NCBI GenBank assembly: GCA_902594235.1
Contig: CACJLJ010000002.1
Span: 62,001 to 126,000 of the forward strand
Reading direction: 5' to 3'
Origin: an uncultured Pelagibacteraceae bacterium
Lineage (GTDB): Bacteria; Pseudomonadota; Alphaproteobacteria; Pelagibacterales; Pelagibacteraceae
Length of the DNA stretch: 64,000 nt
Shown: positions 8,877 through 18,824 of the stretch, piece by piece
How positions within the stretch are numbered: position 1 is the stretch's first letter
How the letters are laid out: each line of letters starts with the position of its first letter
Notes under the pieces: model-generated
Told to the model about the DNA's origin: nothing
Seen by the model: only the letters and a program-made list of their open reading frames with translations
Database searches by the model: none
Program-made: the position numbers and the translations under genes

Positions 8877-8951
8877 GGTCCCTTCGTCTATCGGTTAGGA
8901 CACGTGGTTTTCATCCTCGAAAGAGGGGTTCGATTCCCCTAGGGACCGCCA
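8877..8951 (+). tRNA. tRNA-Glu (anticodon TTC)
   Basis: Acceptor stem GGTCCCT/AGGGACC with G discriminator and encoded CCA, T-arm AGGGG-TTCGATT-CCCCT, and anticodon loop TTTTCAT giving TTC. The anticodon stem reads CGTGG/CCTCG, so the middle pair (29:41) is a T-T mismatch. A TTGATA box lies at 8838-8843, but the matching -10 is weak. Confidence 0.95.
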
Positions 8952-8957
8952 TATTTT

Positions 8958-9209
8958 ATGCCATATTACGTATACATGTTGAAATGTATCTCGCTGGTCA
9001 AAAAAAGAACATATGTTGGTTATACAAAAGACCTTAATGTTAGATTAAACAAACATAATTCAGGTAAAGGAGCAAAATTCACAAAAGGTAATCAATGGAA
9101 AGTTATTTATAAAAAAAGATTTTTATCTAGATCTAAGGCAATGTCTTATGAATATGTTCTAAAACATGATAAAAAAGAAAGGTTAAAAATTTTTAATAAA
9201 TATAAATGA
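8958..9209 (+). CDS. GIY-YIG domain protein (UPF0213-like)
   Basis: This 83-aa protein is a single GIY-YIG nuclease-fold domain: 'YYVYML' at the N-terminus, 'TYVGYT' (18-23), Arg29, His33, 'GKGAKFT' and a candidate metal-binding Glu65 in 'SYEYVLK'. Single-domain members are widespread; their physiological role is poorly defined and DNA cleavage is only inferred. It begins 6 nt after tRNA-Glu and overlaps the following glycosyltransferase gene by 4 nt. Confidence 0.85.
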   Translation: MPYYVYMLKCISLVKKRTYVGYTKDLNVRLNKHNSGKGAKFTKGNQWKVIYKKRFLSRSKAMSYEYVLKHDKKERLKIFNKYK

Positions 9210-11311
9210 ATATTTCTATCCTTCTTCCTTATAAAGAAAATTATTCGAAAGAGATGGCTGGTGCTGTTTCTTTATTTGTTAACGACATAAGCAAAGTAAG
9301 TTTATTTAAGAAATCTATAAAAATTTTTGGATCTACCAAAAAAAAAGATTTTTTGAGTAATAATTATATAAACCTGAATCCAGATAAAAAATTTCTTCAA
9401 AGTGCCAATAAAGAATATGTTAAAACTTTTTTAGAAAATCCATTAATTGAAAATACGGATATATTAGAAATTCATAATAGACCAAATTACATTAAACAAA
9501 TAAAAGAATCCTATAAGAATAAAATATTTCTTTATTTTCACAATGATCCTCTATCAATGAATGGATCCAAAACAGAAAAAGAGAGAGAATTTTTGATTGA
9601 AAATGTTGATAAGATAATTTTTAATAGCAAGTGGTCTAGAGATCGGTTCTTTTTAAGATCAAAATTTAAAGAAACTATGATCAATAAATCCGAGATTTGT
9701 TTTCAATCAACCAATAGAGTTCCAATAAATTTTAAGAATAAACAAAATATAATTACCTTTATTGGTAAATTAAATACAGCTAAAGGTTTTGATATTTTTG
9801 GTAAGACTATTTTAAAAATATTAGATAAATATAAAAATTGGAAAGCATACATAATAGGTGATGAACCAAGAGAGAAAATGTTTTTTAATCATAAAAATTT
9901 AATAAATTTAGGGTTTAAAAAAAATTTATATATTTTAGATTTTCTTAAAAAAGTTAGCATTTCAGTTGTATGTTCAAGATGGGAGGAACCTTTTGGCAGA
10001 ACTAGTTTAGAGGCTGCAAGCAGAGGGTCTGCTGTAATAATTAGTAATCGTGGTGGATTACCCGAAACAACAAATTCTGCAATAATATTAAAATCATTAG
10101 ACGAAAATAACTTATTCAAAGAAATTTCTAATCTTATTAATAATAAAGCACGTTTGACTAAGTTTCAAAAATTAAATTATAAAAATTTTTATCTTACACA
10201 TAAATTTGTTTCAAAAATTTTAGATGATATTAGAAAAAAATATATTCTTAATAAAGTTAATATAAGTAAAAAGAAAATATTGAAAATCATGCATATTACA
10301 AATTTCAATTATCGTTTTGATGGAAGACTACATTATAACACTGGCAGAAGATTAAATAATGGTTTTGTAAGATTAGGTCATAATGTTCTAACAGTAAGTG
10401 ATAGAGATATTATTCATAATAAAAAAAAAATTAATGATTTGGCAGGTTCAAAATCTTTACAAAAATCTGTTTTAAGAAATTATCAAAATTTTAAACCTGA
10501 TTTAGTTATTCTTGGTCATGCTGATAGTGTTTCAAATGAAACATTACACCATATAAAAAAAGATAAAACTTTAATCACACAATGGTTTCTTGATCCAGTG
10601 GGTAGATATGGCCCTGATTACATTAATAACAAAAAGAGAGTTTTGGAAAAAACTAAATTGATTGATACAACTTTTTTAACTACTGATCCAAATTCATTAG
10701 ATTTTAATATACCAAACAGTTTTTATTTACCAAATCCATGTGACTCTTCATTTGAAACATTAAGTAATTATCAAAAAGAATGTGATAACGATTTATTTTT
10801 TGCAATGAGCCATGGTGTTCATCGAGGTGAACTAAAAAAAGGGAAAAAAGATGATCGAGAAATATTTATAAATAAACTTATAAGATTAAATAAATCGATT
10901 ACTTTTGATATTTACGGAATGTTTAATTCTCAACCTGTATGGGCAGATAATTTTTTAAATAAAGTTTCAAATTCATCAATGGCTTTAAATTTAAGTAGAG
11001 GAAAACCAATTAAATATTATAGCAGTGATAGATTAGCACAATTAATGGGGAATGGTCTTTTAACTTTTGTTGATATAAAAACATGTTTGAACGATTTTTT
11101 CACTGATAAGGAAATAGTTTTTTACAAAGATATAAATGATCTGAGTTATAAACTAAATAAATATAAAAAAGATAGAAAAGATAGATGTAAAATAGCAAAA
11201 AAAGGCAAAAAAAAATATTTTAAATATTTTAATTCAACAATAGTAGCCGATTATATTATCCGTCAAACTTTAGGCTTTAAAAATTTAAAGAAATTTTTAT
11301 GGGTAAAGTAG
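9206..11311 (+). CDS. Two-domain glycosyltransferase (GT4 + CgeB-like)
   Basis: A 701-aa fusion of two glycosyltransferase units. Residues 1 to about 340 are GT4-like, with 'IITFIGKLNTAKGF' opening the nucleotide-binding half and 'WEEPFGRTSLEAASRG' near residues 259-274 as the donor-binding block. From about residue 355 a second unit starts ('KIMHITNFNYRFDGRL') and ends with 'SSDRLAQLMGNGLL', resembling the CgeB/DUF3880 glycosyltransferase group. No membrane helices are visible, so it is probably cytoplasmic or peripheral. Sugar and acceptor are unknown; context points to surface polysaccharide or LPS. It overlaps its neighbours by 4 and 13 nt. Confidence 0.78.
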   Translation: MNISILLPYKENYSKEMAGAVSLFVNDISKVSLFKKSIKIFGSTKKKDFLSNNYINLNPDKKFLQSANKEYVKTFLENPLIENTDILEIHNRPNYIKQIKESYKNKIFLYFHNDPLSMNGSKTEKEREFLIENVDKIIFNSKWSRDRFFLRSKFKETMINKSEICFQSTNRVPINFKNKQNIITFIGKLNTAKGFDIFGKTILKILDKYKNWKAYIIGDEPREKMFFNHKNLINLGFKKNLYILDFLKKVSISVVCSRWEEPFGRTSLEAASRGSAVIISNRGGLPETTNSAIILKSLDENNLFKEISNLINNKARLTKFQKLNYKNFYLTHKFVSKILDDIRKKYILNKVNISKKKILKIMHITNFNYRFDGRLHYNTGRRLNNGFVRLGHNVLTVSDRDIIHNKKKINDLAGSKSLQKSVLRNYQNFKPDLVILGHADSVSNETLHHIKKDKTLITQWFLDPVGRYGPDYINNKKRVLEKTKLIDTTFLTTDPNSLDFNIPNSFYLPNPCDSSFETLSNYQKECDNDLFFAMSHGVHRGELKKGKKDDREIFINKLIRLNKSITFDIYGMFNSQPVWADNFLNKVSNSSMALNLSRGKPIKYYSSDRLAQLMGNGLLTFVDIKTCLNDFFTDKEIVFYKDINDLSYKLNKYKKDRKDRCKIAKKGKKKYFKYFNSTIVADYIIRQTLGFKNLKKFLWVK

Positions 11312-12252
11312 CTGTAATTACAGGTATTAGTGGTCAAGATGGTTCATACCTAGCTGAATTATTAGTTAAAAAAAATTATAAAGTTTATGGAATTTGCAAT
11401 CCAAATAAAAAAAATAATCTTACCAATCTTAAAAAAATTTTGAATAGATTGTATATAAAAAAAATAGATATAAATAATTACTCAAAAATAAAAAACCTAA
11501 TTAAAAAGATCAAACCAAATGAATTTTATCATCTAGCTGCTCAAAGTTTTATTAATTATAAATTTGAAGATGAATTTTTTAGATTAAATCCAAATATCAA
11601 TGGAACACACTATATATTGTCCGCGATAAAAGAATTTTCACCAAAAACAAAATTTTATTTTGCAGCATCCTCTGAGTTGTTTGGAAATGCAAAAAAAACA
11701 CCACAGAATGAAGAAACAAAATTTAATCCTCGTTCAGCATATGGTGTATCTAAAGTTGCTGGCTTTTATCTAACTAAGAATTACCGAGAAGCATATAAAT
11801 TACATGCTTGTTCTGGGATTTTATATAATCATGAGTCCCCAAGACGAAATCAAAACTTTGTATCAAGAAAAATAACAAAAAATTTATCTTTAATACTAAA
11901 AGGGAAAATAAATAAGATTAAATTAGGAAATATTAATTCAAAACGAGACTGGGGGCATGCTAAAGATTATGTTTTTGCTATGTGGAAAATGATGCAACTA
12001 AGAAAGCCACAAGATTTTGTCATTGGTACTGGAAAAATTCATTCAGTGAAAGAGTTTATCCATCTAGCTTTCAACTATGTAGGTTTAGATTATAAAAGAC
12101 ATATAAAAATTGATAAAAAATTATTTAGGCCTAATGATAAAATTATACTTAAAGCTGATTTTAAAAAAGCAAAAAAAATTTTAAAATGGAAACCAAAAAT
12201 AAACTTTAAGAAACTAGTTTATGAAATGGTTGATAATGATTTATTAAGCTAA
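11299..12252 (+). CDS. GDP-sugar 4,6-dehydratase (Gmd/DmhA-like)
   Basis: Extended short-chain dehydrogenase. The NAD(P) motif 'TGISGQDGSYL' begins at residue 8, the catalytic YxxxK is Tyr148/Lys152 in 'SAYGVSK', and 'SPRRNQNFVSRKI' with 'RDWGHAKDYV' are Gmd-type substrate blocks. Gmd converts GDP-mannose to GDP-4-keto-6-deoxymannose. At 317 aa it is shorter than typical Gmd (about 345-370). Because hddC, gmhB and hddA homologues follow, the substrate could instead be GDP-D-glycero-D-manno-heptose, as for DmhA of Campylobacter and Yersinia. Sequence alone does not decide this. Confidence 0.82.
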   Translation: MGKVAVITGISGQDGSYLAELLVKKNYKVYGICNPNKKNNLTNLKKILNRLYIKKIDINNYSKIKNLIKKIKPNEFYHLAAQSFINYKFEDEFFRLNPNINGTHYILSAIKEFSPKTKFYFAASSELFGNAKKTPQNEETKFNPRSAYGVSKVAGFYLTKNYREAYKLHACSGILYNHESPRRNQNFVSRKITKNLSLILKGKINKIKLGNINSKRDWGHAKDYVFAMWKMMQLRKPQDFVIGTGKIHSVKEFIHLAFNYVGLDYKRHIKIDKKLFRPNDKIILKADFKKAKKILKWKPKINFKKLVYEMVDNDLLS

Positions 12253-12256
12253 TTTA

Positions 12257-13261
12257 ATGAATAAAAAAGTTCTTATATTTAAAAATGATAGAACCGGAGA
12301 TTTATTTACATCAATTAAAACAATTAATAAGATAATTAATAAACATAAATCACAAAAAATTGTTATCTTTTTATCGCATATAAATTATAAATTTAATTTT
12401 CTATTTCCAAACTTTATTAAGAAAAAAATATCGATGAATCTTAATATAATTGAGAAAATAAAAATTTTTTTTTATTTAGCCGCAAATGACATAGAAACTG
12501 TTTATATCTTATCACCCAAAAATTTTTATTACTATTTACCTTTTATTTTTAGAAAAATAAAATTTTACGCGATCACAATTAAAAGTAACAAAAGTAGGCC
12601 AAATAATTTTTTAAAAAAATATCTTTATAAATACGTTGTATTAGACAGATTAAATATTAAAAAAAGACACTCTACTTATAACATACAACAATCACTTATA
12701 GACACGAAAAATAATCAAGATTACATTAATAAAATATCAAATATTTCACATAATTTTATTTATCCAAGTGATTATATTTTTTTTCATTATAAAAAAAATT
12801 TTTTTAAAAATTTATTAGGATGGGATCTAAATCAAATCAATAGATTAATTGAATTTTTAAATAAAAACTTTAATAACGTGTTATTTTCATCAGAAATTTA
12901 TGATCTTACTACAAATAATTTTTTTTCATCAAAATTTAATACATTTGATTATGACTCAAAAAAAAAAGATATTAAAAATGAAAAAAAAATATTTTTTTTA
13001 AAAAATATAGATGGTTACGATCTATATGATGCTATTGATAAATCCTCGAAAATAATTAGTCCTGAGGGAATAATCACTCATATTGGATATTTTTTAAAAA
13101 AACCAATATTAGCGATGCTACATTTTAATTTATCAAATAAAAAAGATTTTATAAACCAAATAATATCATGTAAGGAATGGTTTCCACCGGATAATTATGA
13201 GTATACTGTTTTAAAAAAAGATTTTACCAAATCTTTAATTAAGTTGAATAAAAGAATTTGA
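12257..13261 (+). CDS. Heptosyltransferase-like (GT9-type) glycosyltransferase
   Basis: The N-terminus 'KVLIFKNDRTGDLFTSI' is the GT9 signature in which a nucleotide-activated heptose donor is bound in LPS heptosyltransferases. A C-terminal block 'ISPEGIITHIGYFLKKP' stands where GT9 proteins have the DSGPxHxA motif. The middle is very Lys/Asn/Phe-rich and weakly conserved. It lies 4 nt after the dehydratase gene and 4 nt before the next glycosyltransferase gene. Transfer of a heptose made by neighbouring gene products is plausible but inferred. Confidence 0.68.
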   Translation: MNKKVLIFKNDRTGDLFTSIKTINKIINKHKSQKIVIFLSHINYKFNFLFPNFIKKKISMNLNIIEKIKIFFYLAANDIETVYILSPKNFYYYLPFIFRKIKFYAITIKSNKSRPNNFLKKYLYKYVVLDRLNIKKRHSTYNIQQSLIDTKNNQDYINKISNISHNFIYPSDYIFFHYKKNFFKNLLGWDLNQINRLIEFLNKNFNNVLFSSEIYDLTTNNFFSSKFNTFDYDSKKKDIKNEKKIFFLKNIDGYDLYDAIDKSSKIISPEGIITHIGYFLKKPILAMLHFNLSNKKDFINQIISCKEWFPPDNYEYTVLKKDFTKSLIKLNKRI

Positions 13262-13265
13262 TTTA

Positions 13266-14273
13266 ATGGATTCAAAACTTAAAATTTATTTTATTGAAAA
13301 TTCTTATGATTATAATGCTTCAGACTTAAACACTATTAAAATTGCTGGTTCTGAAAAAACTCTTATAAATATTACCAATGAACTTGCTAAAGACTCGAAT
13401 TTGATTGTTAAAGTATTTAATAATACATCTGCTTCGTTTTCTAAAATTAATAATGTTACTTGGCAAAATATAAAAGAAATTAGTAAAGATGATAATCCAG
13501 ATTTTGTTATAGCTATGTCAGATGCAAACCTTTTAGAAAAGCTAAATTGTAAAAAAAATTTCTTATGGTCACACAGTATTCAATCTTTTGAAAAATTTGT
13601 TAGAAAAAAACAACTTTTACCTTTTTTAAGATATAAACCTAAAATGATTCTCGAGGGAGAATATCACTACAATAAAAGAAGTTTCTTAACATCTTTTTAT
13701 GGAAAAAAGATTTTAAAAATTGCACCTGACTATGATTTTATTGATACTAAGATTGAAACTAATCATATTCCGCCACCTAATGCAATATTTACTACTAAAT
13801 CTGATCGTAACTTAAATTTTTTAATAAACTCCTGGCACGAAATAAATAAGAGAAATTCGAAAACTAATTTATATATAAATCCACCATATAAATTATCAGA
13901 AAATGATAAAAAAAAGGGAATTCTTCTTCGAAATAAAGGTGATAAAAAAAAACTTATTGTAGATTTAATTAATTCAAGATTATTTTTAACACCTGGTCAT
14001 AAAACTGAAGTCTTTTGTTTAGCTGCTGAAGAAGCAAGAGAGCTCTGTATTCCAATCGTAACAATGGGTTATGGCTGTTTATATGAGAGGATAGAACATG
14101 GAATAACGGGTTTTTTAGCTAAAAATCAAAGTGAATTTATTAATTATGCTTATGAAATTCTAACTAATGATAAAACTTATTTAGATTTAAAAAAGAATTT
14201 GATAAAGAAGAAAAACTCAAGAAACTATTCTCATGTTAAGAATGACTTTATAAATATTTTAAACAATGAATGA
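13266..14273 (+). CDS. GT4-like glycosyltransferase
   Basis: A 335-aa protein with a two-Rossmann GT-B layout. An early 'IAGSEKTLINITNEL' corresponds to the N-terminal acceptor half. The C-terminal half has 'FCLAAEEARELCIPIVTMGYG' spread over about residues 255-275 and then 'EHGITGFLAKNQSEF', the GT4-type donor-binding region. No signal peptide or membrane helix is evident. It overlaps the following fusion gene by 8 nt. Donor and acceptor are unknown. Confidence 0.7.
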   Translation: MDSKLKIYFIENSYDYNASDLNTIKIAGSEKTLINITNELAKDSNLIVKVFNNTSASFSKINNVTWQNIKEISKDDNPDFVIAMSDANLLEKLNCKKNFLWSHSIQSFEKFVRKKQLLPFLRYKPKMILEGEYHYNKRSFLTSFYGKKILKIAPDYDFIDTKIETNHIPPPNAIFTTKSDRNLNFLINSWHEINKRNSKTNLYINPPYKLSENDKKKGILLRNKGDKKKLIVDLINSRLFLTPGHKTEVFCLAAEEARELCIPIVTMGYGCLYERIEHGITGFLAKNQSEFINYAYEILTNDKTYLDLKKNLIKKKNSRNYSHVKNDFINILNNE

Positions 14274-15459
14274 TATAGTAATTCTAGTTGGAGGAAAGGG
14301 GTCAAGATTGGGGAAATTAACAGAAAAAACCCCTAAACCGCTTTTAAAAATTAACAATAAAAGATTTTTAGATATCATTCTAAGTAAACTTATAAGATAT
14401 AATTTTAAAAACATTTATTTACTTTGTTCCTACCAGAAAAAAAAATTTTTTCGTATTTATAATAATAAAAAGATTCATAATTCAAAAATAATTTGTATTA
14501 ATGAGGGATATCCAATGGATACGGGTGGGGCATTATTCAAGTTGAAAAAAAGAATAAAGAGTAGTTTTTTTTGTATGAATGGTGACACATTTTTTGATAT
14601 AGATTACGATTTATTAAAGATCAAAAAAAATGAAAAACAGATATGTAATATAGCTATTACTACTAATAACAACTATAAAAAGAATTCCAAAGTAAATAAC
14701 TTATCTTTAACTAAAAAAGGTTTAATACAATATTCTAATAAAAAGACTAAATTGATGAATGGGGGAGTGTATTTTTTTAAAAAAGAAATATTCAAATACA
14801 TTCCAAATAAAAAGATTTCACTTGAAGATGATATCTTTAAAATGTTGATATTAAAAAAAAAGATTAATGGTATATTTTTTAACGATAGATTTATTGACAT
14901 TGGATCCAAAAAAAATTTAAGTTATCTTAAAAAAAATTTTTGTCTGATCAAACAAAAAGCAGCCTTTTTAGATAGAGATGGAGTTATAAATAGATTAATT
15001 AAAGATGGTTATATAGTAAATTATAAACAATTAAGATTATTAAGAGGTGTAGTAAATGGAATTAAATTTTTAAATTTAAACAAATACTTAACAATACTAA
15101 TAACTAATCAATCATGTGTTGGAAGATCAATTATTAGTGAAAAAAAACTTAATATGATTCATTCATCATTACAAAAATATCTTAAAAGAAGAAATAATTC
15201 ATATTTTGATGATATTTTTTATTCTCCATATTATAAATATTCAAAAAATAAAAAATACAGATTAAATTCATTTGATCGAAAACCAAATCCAGGAATGTTA
15301 AACAAAGCAATTTTAAAATGGAATATAGATTTAAAAAAAAGTTTTTTTATAGGTGATTCTAAAACAGATTTTATTGCTGCAAAAAAAGTTGGTGTTAAAT
15401 TTTATTACAAAGAAAATATATCTTTATTAAATCAATTTAAACAAATTTTAAATAAATGA
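14266..15459 (+). CDS. Fused heptose-1-phosphate guanylyltransferase (HddC-like) and heptose bisphosphate phosphatase (GmhB-like)
   Basis: Two enzymes in one 397-aa chain. Residues 1 to about 228 are a sugar-phosphate nucleotidyltransferase with 'VGGKGSRLGKLTEKTPKPLL' at the N-terminus and 'CMNGDTFFDID' at the metal site. Residues 232-397 are a HAD phosphatase of GmhB type: 'LDRDGVIN' (Asp236, Asp238), 'ITNQS', 'DRKPNPGML' and 'IGDSKTDFIAA'. The loop that carries zinc-binding Cys/His in E. coli GmhB has none here. GmhB removes the 7-phosphate from heptose 1,7-bisphosphate and HddC makes GDP-heptose, so the two domains act in successive steps. It overlaps hddA by 4 nt. Confidence 0.82.
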   Translation: MNDIVILVGGKGSRLGKLTEKTPKPLLKINNKRFLDIILSKLIRYNFKNIYLLCSYQKKKFFRIYNNKKIHNSKIICINEGYPMDTGGALFKLKKRIKSSFFCMNGDTFFDIDYDLLKIKKNEKQICNIAITTNNNYKKNSKVNNLSLTKKGLIQYSNKKTKLMNGGVYFFKKEIFKYIPNKKISLEDDIFKMLILKKKINGIFFNDRFIDIGSKKNLSYLKKNFCLIKQKAAFLDRDGVINRLIKDGYIVNYKQLRLLRGVVNGIKFLNLNKYLTILITNQSCVGRSIISEKKLNMIHSSLQKYLKRRNNSYFDDIFYSPYYKYSKNKKYRLNSFDRKPNPGMLNKAILKWNIDLKKSFFIGDSKTDFIAAKKVGVKFYYKENISLLNQFKQILNK

Positions 15460-16433
15460 TAATTTCAAAGACACCATTTAGAATTTCACTAATTGGAGGT
15501 GGAACAGATTTTCCCTCCTATTATAAAAAATATCCTGGACTGGTAATTGGGGGAACCATTAATAAATATTGTTATGTCACTGCTAGACATTTGCCAAATG
15601 TTTTTGATTATAAACATAGAATTGTTTGGTCTAAAAATGAAGTGGTTAATAATATTAATGAAATAATACATCCAACAGTCAAAGGGGTTTTTAAATTTCT
15701 AAAGATTAATAAAGGTTTAGAAATCCACTATCAGGGTGATTTACAAAAAAATTCTGGTTTAGGTACTAGTTCCTCTTTTTGTGTTGGATTAATTAATTCA
15801 TTAATAGAATTAAATAATAAAAAAATTTCAAATAAAGAATTAGCTTCTAAAGCAATTCATATAGAACAAAAAATAATGAAAGAAAACTCTGGTTCCCAAG
15901 ATGCAATTTGGGCTTCTTATGGAGGATTTAATTCTATTAAGTTTAATAATAATAAATTTTCAGTAAATAGAATTAAAATTACAAAAGATAAATTAAATGA
16001 ACTTAGCAAAAATCTCTTTTTGGTTTACACAGGTATTAATAAATTTTCAAATACGATAGAGAAAGATAAGATATCTAATTTACAATCAAACATTAAGTAT
16101 TTATCAACAATTTATGAATTAGCCAATGAACTGGAAAACAACATATATCAAAAAAAGGATTTCAATTACATTGGATCAATTTTAAATGAATATTGGAATA
16201 TTAAAAAAAAATTGTCATCTAAAGTAAGCAATATGAAAATCGATGAAATCTATAATGAATCTTTATCAGCTGGTGCGTCAGGTGGAAAAATTATTGGATC
16301 AGGTGGGGGTGGTTTCTTATTGATTTATTGTAAAAAAAAATTTCACTCTAATTTAAAAAAAAGATTGAATAAATTACCTATTATTAAATTTAACTTTGTT
16401 AACGAGGGTTCTAAAATAATCTTTAAATCTTAA
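15456..16433 (+). CDS. hddA: D-glycero-D-manno-heptose 7-phosphate kinase (HddA-like, GHMP kinase)
   Basis: GHMP-fold kinase of 325 aa. The N-terminus 'TPFRISLIGGGTDFPSY' is the HddA-type substrate segment, the ATP motif 'NSGLGTSSS' is at 99-107, and motif 3 appears as 'SAGASGGKIIGSGGGG' near residues 275-290. HddA phosphorylates heptose 7-phosphate at C1, giving the bisphosphate used by GmhB. The placement directly after an HddC-GmhB fusion makes this reading more likely than another GHMP sugar kinase. Its 3' end overlaps a convergent glycosyltransferase gene by 11 nt. Confidence 0.83.
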   Translation: MIISKTPFRISLIGGGTDFPSYYKKYPGLVIGGTINKYCYVTARHLPNVFDYKHRIVWSKNEVVNNINEIIHPTVKGVFKFLKINKGLEIHYQGDLQKNSGLGTSSSFCVGLINSLIELNNKKISNKELASKAIHIEQKIMKENSGSQDAIWASYGGFNSIKFNNNKFSVNRIKITKDKLNELSKNLFLVYTGINKFSNTIEKDKISNLQSNIKYLSTIYELANELENNIYQKKDFNYIGSILNEYWNIKKKLSSKVSNMKIDEIYNESLSAGASGGKIIGSGGGGFLLIYCKKKFHSNLKKRLNKLPIIKFNFVNEGSKIIFKS

Positions 16434-17160
16434 TAAAAATAGATTTAAATATGTACTTTAGATACTCAATTTTATGTATTTTTCTTCTGTTTAAAAATAA
16501 ACCGTCTTTATGAACTGTTAAATGAAGACTATCTTTTTTGCTATTAGAGTTTTGTTTATAAATTAATCTTTTATTGAATTCTTTTCTAAAGTCTTCAATT
16601 AAATTTTTTATTGAGGATTTTTTTTCTTTTTGAAGATATATAGCAAGCCACAGATCATCATCTAAAAACATGTTTTTGTTATATTTGACAAATTTTTCAT
16701 AAAATTTTTCAATATTATCTAAAAGTTTTGTGTTCATTAAAAAACCATCAGAACATTGTCCCATTTTAATATTAAATATTTTATTCAAATAAAAGCTATA
16801 ATTGACTTGTTCATCTTTGAATGCACTCAAAAAAAAATGACACATATTTTCATCATAAAGATGATCGTCATCCAATAATATTACACAATCATAATTTCTT
16901 ACTTTTTCTATCGAACCCATAATTTTAGTACCAGGTCCAAAATCTTCACATCTATTAATTTCTAAATTTTTATGATCTAATTTGATTAAATCTTTTTCAT
17001 TAATTTTTTGGTCAGGAAATCTTCGATATTTAAATGGAATATTGAGATATATCTTCTCAGGTTTTAATGTTTGTTTATTTATATTTTCGATTATTTCTGA
17101 GATGTTTCCAATTCTTGAGGGAATTGTTGACATAGAAATACAAAATGAAAATTCTTTCAC
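16423..17160 (-). CDS. GT-A fold glycosyltransferase-like protein
   Basis: A 245-aa protein with 'ISMSTIPSRIGNISEII' at the N-terminus and 'VILLDDDHLYDENM' near residue 95, a DxD-type metal/nucleotide-sugar site; 'MFLDDDLWLAIYL' further on matches a catalytic-base region. This arrangement fits GT2/GT-A enzymes acting on a nucleotide sugar. It is transcribed opposite to the other island genes, after the transaldolase gene (6-nt gap). Specificity is unknown. Confidence 0.65.
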   Translation of the reverse strand: MKEFSFCISMSTIPSRIGNISEIIENINKQTLKPEKIYLNIPFKYRRFPDQKINEKDLIKLDHKNLEINRCEDFGPGTKIMGSIEKVRNYDCVILLDDDHLYDENMCHFFLSAFKDEQVNYSFYLNKIFNIKMGQCSDGFLMNTKLLDNIEKFYEKFVKYNKNMFLDDDLWLAIYLQKEKKSSIKNLIEDFRKEFNKRLIYKQNSNSKKDSLHLTVHKDGLFLNRRKIHKIEYLKYIFKSIFIKI

Positions 17161-17166
17161 AAAATT

Positions 17167-17859
17167 TTAAACTTTAAATTTGCTTTTTTTGGCGTCTTTA
17201 TAGAAACCTTTTACAGTATCAATAGTCAATTTTTTGTATGTTTTATTTGAATCTTTTACTTGTTCGATAATTTTAGGCGGCATTGTTATTATCTGACATC
17301 CTAGTTGTTTTGCCTCTAAATAATTATATGTTTCCCTGGTGCTTGCCCATAAAATTTCGATATTCTTAAATTTTTTTATATGTTTAAGAGATTTTTTAAA
17401 TATTGGGATTGGGTTTTTTAATTGATCTCCCATTCTTCCAGCAAAAATAGAGATAATCGCTTTAGTTTTTTTATTAATTTTCTTACATATACTTTTAACT
17501 TGTTCAAAGGTGTAAACAGCAGTTATATTTAACTTAACTTTTTCGTCACTTAATCTTTTAATAGTCTTTCCAGTAAATTTACCTTTAGTATTCACAACAG
17601 GTATTTTAACATAAATATTTTTGGCCCATCCGTTAATTATTTTTCCTTGGTTATACATTTCATCGATATTGTCAGAAAAAACTTCTAATGAAACTGGCTT
17701 TTTATTACTATTTTTTAATAATTTGACAGAATATGATTTATAACTTTTTGCTCCAGATTGTCTCATTAAACTTGGATTAGTTGTAAAACCTTTTACTGTT
17801 TTATCTTTTTTGTATCTTAAAAAAATTTTATAATTAGCACTGTCACAAAATATTTTCAT
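17167..17859 (-). CDS. Transaldolase (TalC/FSA-like)
   Basis: A small transaldolase of the fructose-6-phosphate-aldolase-like group (230 aa). The N-terminus 'KIFCDSAN' and 'VKGFTTNPSLM' match the DTA and TTNPSL motifs. The Schiff-base lysine is Lys85 in 'YVKIP', and 'LNITAVYTFEQ' follows as the next strand. Transaldolase exchanges a dihydroxyacetone unit and yields sedoheptulose 7-phosphate, the precursor of heptoses. Its position beside a GDP-heptose gene set suggests it may feed that pathway; it may equally serve the pentose phosphate pathway alone. Confidence 0.83.
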   Translation of the reverse strand: MKIFCDSANYKIFLRYKKDKTVKGFTTNPSLMRQSGAKSYKSYSVKLLKNSNKKPVSLEVFSDNIDEMYNQGKIINGWAKNIYVKIPVVNTKGKFTGKTIKRLSDEKVKLNITAVYTFEQVKSICKKINKKTKAIISIFAGRMGDQLKNPIPIFKKSLKHIKKFKNIEILWASTRETYNYLEAKQLGCQIITMPPKIIEQVKDSNKTYKKLTIDTVKGFYKDAKKSKFKV

Positions 17860-17870
17860 AATTTAAGATA

Positions 17871-18824
17871 TCATATTTTGATTTTATTTAGTGCATTATT
17901 TTTGAATATATTTGCTTCTCTTATATATCTTCTAACCATTTGTGTTGTTTTGTGACCAGTCATTGCCATAATACTACGTTCATCAGCACCAGATTCTGCG
18001 GCAACAGTTGCAAAACCAGATCTTAAACTATGACCTGCAAAATTTTTATTCTCAATGCCTGCTAAATTTAAATATTCTTTCATTAGCAAAACTACTGATT
18101 GATCGGTTAATCTTTTTTCTGTTAGAGATAACCCTTTAGAAAATCTTCTAAAAATAGGTCCAGATTTAATTTTAGAAATTTCTAGCCACTTTTTAAGATT
18201 GACTACAGGGCAATAGTTTTCGTTGGTAAAGTAGGGCAGACCTTTGATCATTCCTTCACCAAATTGATCTGTTTTTGACCTTCTGATAGTAATTTTAAGA
18301 CCTTCAGGTACAAATTCTAAATCTTCATGATCAATGGAAATAAGCTCAGTTCGTCTAAAGCCACCTCCAAAGCCAACTAAGATAATTGACTTGTCTCTTA
18401 ACTTCTTTGTATCATCAATTTTTTGTTCATTTATTACATTAATTATTGACTTTAAATGATTGATTAATATAGGTTTTTTTCCTTTTTGAATACTTCCTTT
18501 AACCCTTTTTATTCCCATTAAATTTTCAACAATAATTGGGTGTTTTGTATCTAAATAATGTCCTTTAAGTTTATGCACCATACTTATTGACACTAATCTT
18601 CTTCTCAAGGTGCTGATTTTTGAATTTTTTGAGAGATGGGTTAGGTATAAAGAGACTATTTTTGGCTCAGATGGCAATGAATTCAAACCATGCTTAGCGC
18701 AAAAAGCTGCAAAATCTTTAAAGTCTGATTTATATGCTCTTAAAGTGTTATTTGCTTTTGAGCTTTTTAGGTTATTTAAAGTCGCCTCATGAAGCGATTT
18801 TAGGTCTGTTGTTAGTTCATTCAT
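17871..18824 (-). CDS. Tyrosine recombinase / integrase
   Basis: Complete tyrosine site-specific recombinase (317 aa). Residues 1 to about 110 form the SAM-like core-binding domain. The catalytic set is intact: Arg157 ('FRRTEL'), Lys184 ('SKTDQ'), His265 and Arg268 ('HSLR'), His291 ('TGHKT') and nucleophile Tyr300. It is unlike housekeeping XerC/XerD in context, standing alone at the edge of the carbohydrate island. Its upstream region holds a TGATAA/TTATCA inverted repeat (18836-18841, 18849-18854) that could be an operator. Its target site is unknown. It may be an island integrase or a domesticated element. Confidence 0.88.
   Translation of the reverse strand: MNELTTDLKSLHEATLNNLKSSKANNTLRAYKSDFKDFAAFCAKHGLNSLPSEPKIVSLYLTHLSKNSKISTLRRRLVSISMVHKLKGHYLDTKHPIIVENLMGIKRVKGSIQKGKKPILINHLKSIINVINEQKIDDTKKLRDKSIILVGFGGGFRRTELISIDHEDLEFVPEGLKITIRRSKTDQFGEGMIKGLPYFTNENYCPVVNLKKWLEISKIKSGPIFRRFSKGLSLTEKRLTDQSVVLLMKEYLNLAGIENKNFAGHSLRSGFATVAAESGADERSIMAMTGHKTTQMVRRYIREANIFKNNALNKIKI

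Follow-up and report, generated by a model that had tools for sequence, protein, structure and literature searches.

A surface-polysaccharide island with a probable GDP-heptose enzyme core in a Pelagibacteraceae genome

The DNA analysed here, referred to as the window, is a stretch of 64,000 nucleotides of contig CACJLJ010000002.1 from an uncultured Pelagibacteraceae bacterium. It carries an island of ~10 kb at a tRNA-Glu gene. This is probably a surface-polysaccharide island whose enzyme core, an HddC-GmhB fusion protein and an HddA-like kinase, makes guanosine diphosphate heptose (GDP-heptose), with a Gmd-type dehydratase as a separate module. The GDP-heptose-type operon is real and is already anticipated by known pathways. 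Its extension to a 6-deoxyheptose, as put forward in the initial annotation, is not supported here.

The fused enzyme and its operon

The HddC-GmhB fusion (14266..15459, + strand) is a protein of 397 amino acids. It is composed of a nucleotidyltransferase domain at ~14266-14919 and a HAD phosphatase domain at ~14953-15405, both named by best match. The HddC-like part spans residues 4-218 and matches NF049965 at 101 bits (cut-off 300), and the GmhB-like part spans residues 230-378 and matches NF006506 at 106 bits (cut-off 178). The motifs GGxGxR, NGDT, DxDG, TNQ, RKP, and GDxxxD are present. The top PDB matches of the nucleotidyltransferase half are 5xhw/6jq8, a 6-deoxy-D-mannoheptose pathway protein that is presumably Yersinia HddC, at 69 bits; the next match reaches 41 bits. 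The HAD half is closest to 3l8e, a D,D-heptose 1,7-bisphosphate phosphatase presumed to be E. coli GmhB, at 57 bits. The zinc-loop cysteines of E. coli-type GmhB are absent from the HAD half of the window fusion. Among 20 aligned SAR11 fusions, the full Cys-His-Cys-Cys zinc pattern is seen only in L043. Relatives with fusions of 87, 56, 54, and 55% identity also have the frame unbroken, so it is not an assembly artefact.

The HddA-like GHMP heptose-7-phosphate kinase (15456..16433, + strand) overlaps the fusion by 4 bases. It matches NF049969 at 152 bits, where the equivalog cut-off is 600. Heptose kinases lead its PDB ranking (4n3o at 129 bits, 3k85 at 127), followed by two putative sugar kinases at 122 and 120 bits, presumably Burkholderia WcbL, and a mevalonate kinase at 43.

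Within the family, 47 of 397 genomes carry a fusion with both domains, and 73 of 397 give any match at E 1e-20. For comparison, 35 SAR11 fusion windows (L039-L073) were used; they represent 34 of the other 46 both-domain carriers, the remaining 12 being left aside. The HddA-type kinase occurs in 32 of these windows, an SIS isomerase in 17, and a heptose-dehydratase relative in 5. The closest relative, genome G360 (L039), has the gene order of the window including Gmd, except for the GT9-like gene; its fusion and kinase frames are intact and are 87% and 92% identical to those of the window. The island in L042 reads two-domain glycosyltransferase (GTA), GT9-like, GT4, fusion, gmhA, HddA, and recombinase. 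L040 has the same order minus gmhA, and Gmd is missing at that place from both. Genomes G127 and G244 likewise have the fusion and HddA without Gmd at that place.

The fusion is not peculiar to SAR11. Named genomes were scanned for the best 80 loci by match to the fusion, several with incomplete flanks, and 55 of these 80 are fused, a proportion that is not a natural frequency. Five of the 55 belong to Pelagibacteraceae (some on the same contigs as the SAR11 windows) and 50 lie outside. Of these 50, 27 have both a kinase and an SIS gene, 7 a kinase only, 3 an SIS gene only, and 13 neither. The hosts of fused loci include Proteobacteria, Spirochaetes, Bacteroidota, Bacillota, Gastranaerophilales, and one archaeal metagenome-assembled genome. 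The fused form is a widespread and ordinary architecture of such operons.

The reactions, the stereochemistry of their substrates, and the identity of the isomerase are read here from gene identity, order, conservation, and co-occurrence. Transaldolase and transketolase chemistry would yield sedoheptulose 7-phosphate, and a GmhA-type isomerase encoded outside the cluster would convert it to heptose 7-phosphate. HddA would phosphorylate C1 of this sugar. The HAD half of the fusion would remove the C7 phosphate, and the nucleotidyltransferase half would add guanosine monophosphate; heptose 1-phosphate is perhaps handed between the two active sites. The adjacent glycosyltransferases would use GDP-heptose, and Gmd would most likely act separately, on GDP-mannose. 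Of the sedoheptulose 7-phosphate to GDP-heptose pathway first proposed for this DNA, the part formed by the fusion and HddA holds, with gmhA beside them in L041 and L042; the 6-deoxy step does not.

A GDP-heptose system described in PMC10680097 uses the same families of kinase, phosphatase, and nucleotidyltransferase as the window. There, GmhB and HddC are separate proteins and GmhB is encoded outside the capsule cluster, whereas the window has both in one polypeptide and its cluster has no GmhA. Among the papers listed in searches of the open-access literature, where most subscription papers are missing, none deals with SAR11 GDP-heptose synthesis or with a fusion of HddC and GmhB, and none of the open-access papers searched contains hddC, gmhB, and fusion together. 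PMC7029224, retrieved for SAR11 and heptose, has heptose in one reference title only. The main text of the review PMC8987622 does not mention DmhA, WcbK, DdahA, or heptose.

If this reading is correct, heptose would be a building block of surface glycans in a minority of SAR11 genomes (47 of 397, many of them incomplete). By extension, a heptose on the SAR11 surface would bear on phage receptors.

The isomerase and its kinase partners

In two close relatives, gmhA is a member of the operon. In L041 and L042 it is placed exactly between the fusion and HddA, and its product retains E, Q, and H, the canonical GmhA residues. Absence of gmhA from every related genome with the cluster would, according to the initial annotation, have counted against the pathway. 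The gene is instead found in the same island in L042, and L041 has fusion, gmhA, and HddA at a different genomic place.

The source genome (G000), a member of SAR11, is assembled into 12 contigs totalling 1.19 Mb; the assembly is 96.6% complete and lacks at least pntB. The assignment to SAR11 follows from relatives such as the named locus L139 of Pelagibacteraceae. The search of this genome for gmhA that the initial annotation had proposed returned one GmhA-like match at 78 bits and a weak match in a longer SIS-CBS protein. The GmhA-like match is a D-type SIS, in which Asp and Glu replace the canonical Glu and Gln; the SAR11 form (D/E/L) has also lost the His. The top PDB matches of the D-type profile are phosphoheptose isomerases, with DiaA lower. 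An uncharacterised variant encoded at another place in the genome may stand in for the first enzyme that the cluster lacks.

A polysaccharide cluster adjoining the 23S-16S rRNA genes holds the D-type SIS gene and, 7 kb away from that gene, the gene of a second HddA-like kinase (145 bits). This rRNA-linked cluster (L003:738-14329) encodes a NeuB-like protein, a cytidylyltransferase, a DegT aminotransferase, a formyltransferase, and an RmlA-like protein along with the second kinase. According to PMC11898729, the O-chain biosynthesis cluster of Pelagibacterales sits between the 23S and 5S rRNA genes and likewise consists of low-GC, variable polysaccharide genes. The copy in G000 is the one that holds the D-type SIS and the second kinase. 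The cluster in the window differs from it in being a second island, of ~10 kb, at tRNA-Glu. Heptose, GmhA, GDP, and transaldolase are not mentioned in the main text of that paper.

SIS genes were compared between the 47 both-domain carriers and 324 non-carriers; 26 genomes with a partial fusion were excluded (3 with E-type, 9 with D-type). Classes were called at ~150 bits or more on profiles A4 (E) and A3 (D). E-type GmhA is present in 14/47 carriers and 24/324 non-carriers (p 4e-5), and D-type SIS in 17/47 and 18/324 (p 3e-8). Either class is found in 31/47 carriers and 42/324 non-carriers (p 5e-14). No carrier has both, where 5.1 would be expected (p 4e-4), and the classes follow genus.

Among the best 80 loci, 30 SIS proteins of fused loci outside Pelagibacteraceae could be classed. 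Gln is kept in 17, and 15 of these have all three residues. The 13 of the D kind are made up of 10 D/E/H, 1 D/E/N, and 2 partly aligned proteins. None is D/E/L, which is the SAR11 form in this sample. Tail-to-tail with a D-type SIS gene, within ~60 bases, a match to the GmhB half alone occurs in G235:C7, G279:C1, G357:C27, and G095:C1; those of G279 and G095 contain in-frame stops.

Kinase and fusion trees were labelled by the isomerase type of each locus, set by residue: loci whose SIS keeps Gln were called E and the others D, so that E includes a few SIS proteins without Glu or His. The kinase tree has 76 rows, 51 of them labelled (31 E, 20 D), and requires 3 label changes against 16 in shuffled labels (0/500 as low). 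The fusion tree has 95 rows, 56 labelled, and requires 7 changes against 18 (0/500 as low). Both are quick trees with duplicate rows, which in the kinase tree include the identical pairs L042/L139, L044/L176, and L061/L146. Since the shuffles ignore relatedness and duplicates, they establish clustering and not independent events. Unexpectedly, isomerase type tracks kinase lineage, a hint of two parallel fused pathways, one of them with an uncharacterised isomerase. The window kinase and the window fusion each belong to a clade of six rows in which every labelled row is E-type; these rows come from two distinct loci only, L041 and L042 (L139 being a further copy of L042). The next clade of the fusion tree is mixed, with 6 D and 4 E among 27 rows.

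A wider form of this idea holds that bacteria have two parallel fusion-based pathways. One would use canonical GmhA; the other would combine a D-type ketoheptose-phosphate isomerase, as yet uncharacterised, with a kinase lineage of its own and make a nucleotide heptose of other stereochemistry. In G000 the two would be mixed across two islands, with the D-type isomerase and second kinase in the O-chain island and the tRNA-Glu island contributing fusion and HddA. The second kinase groups with the D-type locus L067. This wider reading is considered rather unlikely, and its odds are lowered by the lack of D/E/L outside SAR11, where 10 of 13 are D/E/H. In L044, L046, and L048, an HddA of the mainly E-partnered lineage is paired with a D-type SIS, at a distance of 16 bases in L048 and 1.2 kb in L044 and L046. 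Such mixed pairing suggests that one isomerase type can possibly be substituted for the other. The split between canonical and D-type isomerases raises the directly testable question of a second heptose route, and the D-type isomerase with its matching kinase lineage is a point worth testing.

The dehydratase and the competing explanations

The dehydratase (11299..12252, + strand) is a short relative of Gmd-type GDP-mannose 4,6-dehydratases, of 317 amino acids. It matches PF16363 at 353 bits and TIGR01472 at 346 bits, under the cut-off of 415. The initial annotation had given it a DmhA-like role. The routes to 6-deoxyheptose in Campylobacter (WcbK/DdahA) and Yersinia (DmhA) are described in PMC7949155, and the C. 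jejuni GDP-heptose 4,6-dehydratase (7us5) and Yersinia DmhA belong to the same Gmd-like superfamily as the window protein. The scores speak for Gmd, with 284 bits to Gmd 1n7g and 117 to 7us5. In a 38-row tree, where 7us5 serves as the heptose-dehydratase reference and Yersinia DmhA is not included, the window protein forms a four-row clade (100/98) with proteins of G360, G036, and G384. This clade diverges from the canonical Gmds, next to which it branches, and a 100/100 split separates both from 7us5. Such grouping with GDP-mannose enzymes is the first half of what the initial annotation had named as counting against its pathway, the other half being a nucleotidyltransferase preference for another sugar phosphate. 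A ManC-like gene is present in G000 (242 bits, under the family cut-off of 373). Gmd is most likely a separate module acting on GDP-mannose, as judged by sequence relationship.

The full pathway, in which this dehydratase acts on GDP-heptose and the cluster makes GDP-6-deoxyheptose, is quite unlikely. It would suit the presence of Gmd in the same gene run in the window and G360 and the divergence of its clade. In addition, heptose-dehydratase relatives do occur in SAR11: five SAR11 proteins of other fusion windows join 7us5 and a single planctomycete protein in one group (99/98), and one of the five reaches 356 bits with 7us5, compared with 191 for the reductase 2pk3 and 130 for Gmd 1db3. The window dehydratase stands on the Gmd side instead. 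In G036 (L325), the same slot holds GTA, Gmd, and the GT9-like gene without fusion or HddA, and no fusion, HddA, or SIS gene lies within 20 kb of this Gmd clade in G036 or G384. No 4-reductase was found by Pfam and NCBIfam among the nine window proteins scanned. Synthesis of 6-deoxyheptose is plausible for the other SAR11 clusters with heptose-dehydratase relatives and is not supported for the cluster in the window. The transaldolase and the window-type short Gmd of G384 (L324:8959-10699) are neighbours beside pntB.

Several observations weigh against GDP-heptose as the product of the island. As the initial annotation had correctly reported, gmhA is absent from the cluster, and the place between fusion and HddA is without it in the window, G360, and G127. 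No isomerase with the canonical E, Q, and H was found in the G000 assembly, only the D-type SIS (D, E, L), and no SIS match was found in the 88% complete assembly of G360. These absences are what would be expected of a decaying or incomplete cluster that has lost gmhA from the operon and whose remaining genes no longer make a nucleotide sugar. That explanation is very unlikely in view of frames that are intact and overlapping, motifs that are complete, and the intact, closely similar fusion and kinase of G360. At the cut used, 16/47 carriers have neither isomerase class, 5 of the 16 having a weaker third-class SIS, and the co-occurrence statistics are confounded by relatedness. Kinase lineage and isomerase class are mismatched in G000. 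The fusions of G036 and G384 lie on another contig, so that Gmd there is not free of heptose genes genome-wide, which also favours the 6-deoxy pathway.

The substrate of the core enzymes is a further point. The HAD half scores 106 and 86 bits with beta-type GmhB models and 69 with the alpha-type model. All equivalog models for the core enzymes are under their NCBIfam cut-offs, and the runner-up models of the nucleotidyltransferase half are an archaeal GlmU-type (92 bits) and a mannose-1-phosphate guanylyltransferase type (82 bits). With scores under cut-off and close rival models, the nucleotide and the sugar are not settled by sequence alone. The GDP route requires the alpha anomer (PMC10680097). 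Conceivably, the D-type SIS supplies a different substrate to the kinase, the phosphatase, and the nucleotidyltransferase, either a heptose of other stereochemistry or another sugar phosphate. The D-type SIS as the only type in G000, its enrichment among carriers, and its pairing with E-lineage HddA in L048, L044, and L046 agree with this alternative. It is nevertheless judged unlikely: the window HddA and fusion belong to E-partnered clades, albeit of two distinct loci, and in G000 the D-type gene is part of the O-chain island, 7 kb from the second kinase. GDP-heptose synthesis by the core, with Gmd as a separate module, is the preferred reading.

Island layout, transaldolase, and neighbouring genes

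The left edge of the island is tRNA-Glu (ttc; 8877..8951, + strand), and no exact repeat of at least 12 bases of this gene occurs elsewhere within the 64-kb window. A GIY-YIG domain gene (8958-9209, + strand) follows directly. The right edge is a tyrosine recombinase (17871..18824, - strand; PF00589), which occupies the same place in L039, L040, L042, and L325. On the + strand, the order is GIY-YIG, two-domain GT4, Gmd, GT9-like, GT4, HddC-GmhB fusion, and HddA, with spacings of -4, -13, 4, 4, -8, and -4 bases. Three genes lie on the - strand: a protein of the 16423-17160 interval, the transaldolase, and the recombinase. Guanine-cytosine content is 23.2% in 9206-17859 and 27.9% in the remaining window.

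The genes that the initial annotation listed for 11299-17859 were recovered as intact frames at their positions. Its list omits two genes of that range, a GT4-like glycosyltransferase (13266..14273, + strand; PF00534, 30.5 bits) and a protein with a DDD stretch (16423..17160, - strand). The latter has no Pfam or NCBIfam match, is possibly a glycosyltransferase, and among windows L039-L073 is present in L039 only. Just upstream of the range, and also unlisted, is a two-domain, GT4-like glycosyltransferase (GTA; 9206..11311, + strand; PF00534 and PF13524), which is also found in L039, L040, L042, and L325.

The gene described as a GT9 heptosyltransferase-like gene (12257..13261, + strand) is present as a frame, and its GT9 identity is weak, coming from homologue and fold-search matches. 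The window protein has no Pfam or NCBIfam match at E 0.01. One of five homologues (G036) matches PF01075 at E 7e-4 and 19.5 bits, where the gathering score is 22. When a structure model of low confidence (pLDDT 56) was compared with known folds, the GT9 structure 3tov came first and WaaC fourth, with TM-scores near 0.3, and a PDB sequence search with the alignment gave nothing useful. In G360, the GT9-like gene (L039:16873-17871) is encoded on the opposite strand, at a position downstream of the island. It is 64% identical to that of the window, and Gmd, fusion, HddA, and transaldolase are 80-94% identical.

The transaldolase (17167..17859, - strand) matches TIGR02134 at 254 bits and is the sole match in the assembly. 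The 66 genomes searched comprise all both-domain carriers except G010 (46 of 47), together with 20 genomes that lack a fusion match, taken from the top of the list. A transaldolase is found in 61 of the 66, including 19 of the 20 without a fusion match. It is thus near-universal and was rejected as a heptose-specific marker of the cluster. The transaldolase is compatible with the proposed supply of sedoheptulose 7-phosphate but is no specific sign of it. Its position in the island is nonetheless unusual. In a tree of best matches only, from which copies at 46-50% were left out, the window and G360 transaldolases are a divergent pair among 22 rows. The gene is beside pntB (PF02233) in six of seven genomes with pntB (G127, G384, G003, G244, G168, and G035), and none was found at that site in the seventh, G360. 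G000 may have a native copy at that site, since pntB is missing from its assembly. In this lineage the cell may have no transaldolase other than the island copy, and a link to heptose supply would be compatible with that. An SIS gene lies within 1 kb of the transaldolase in 6 of the 66 genomes (G127, G193, G312, G146, G063, and G069).

Similar genes are also seen in viral contigs. Four of 80 viral loci from IMG/VR (L219-L222) have an SIS gene, an HddC-GmhB fusion, and an HddA-type kinase side by side, and this may possibly represent phage-borne GDP-heptose synthesis or mis-binned host DNA. The kinases of these four contigs form one clade on the kinase tree.

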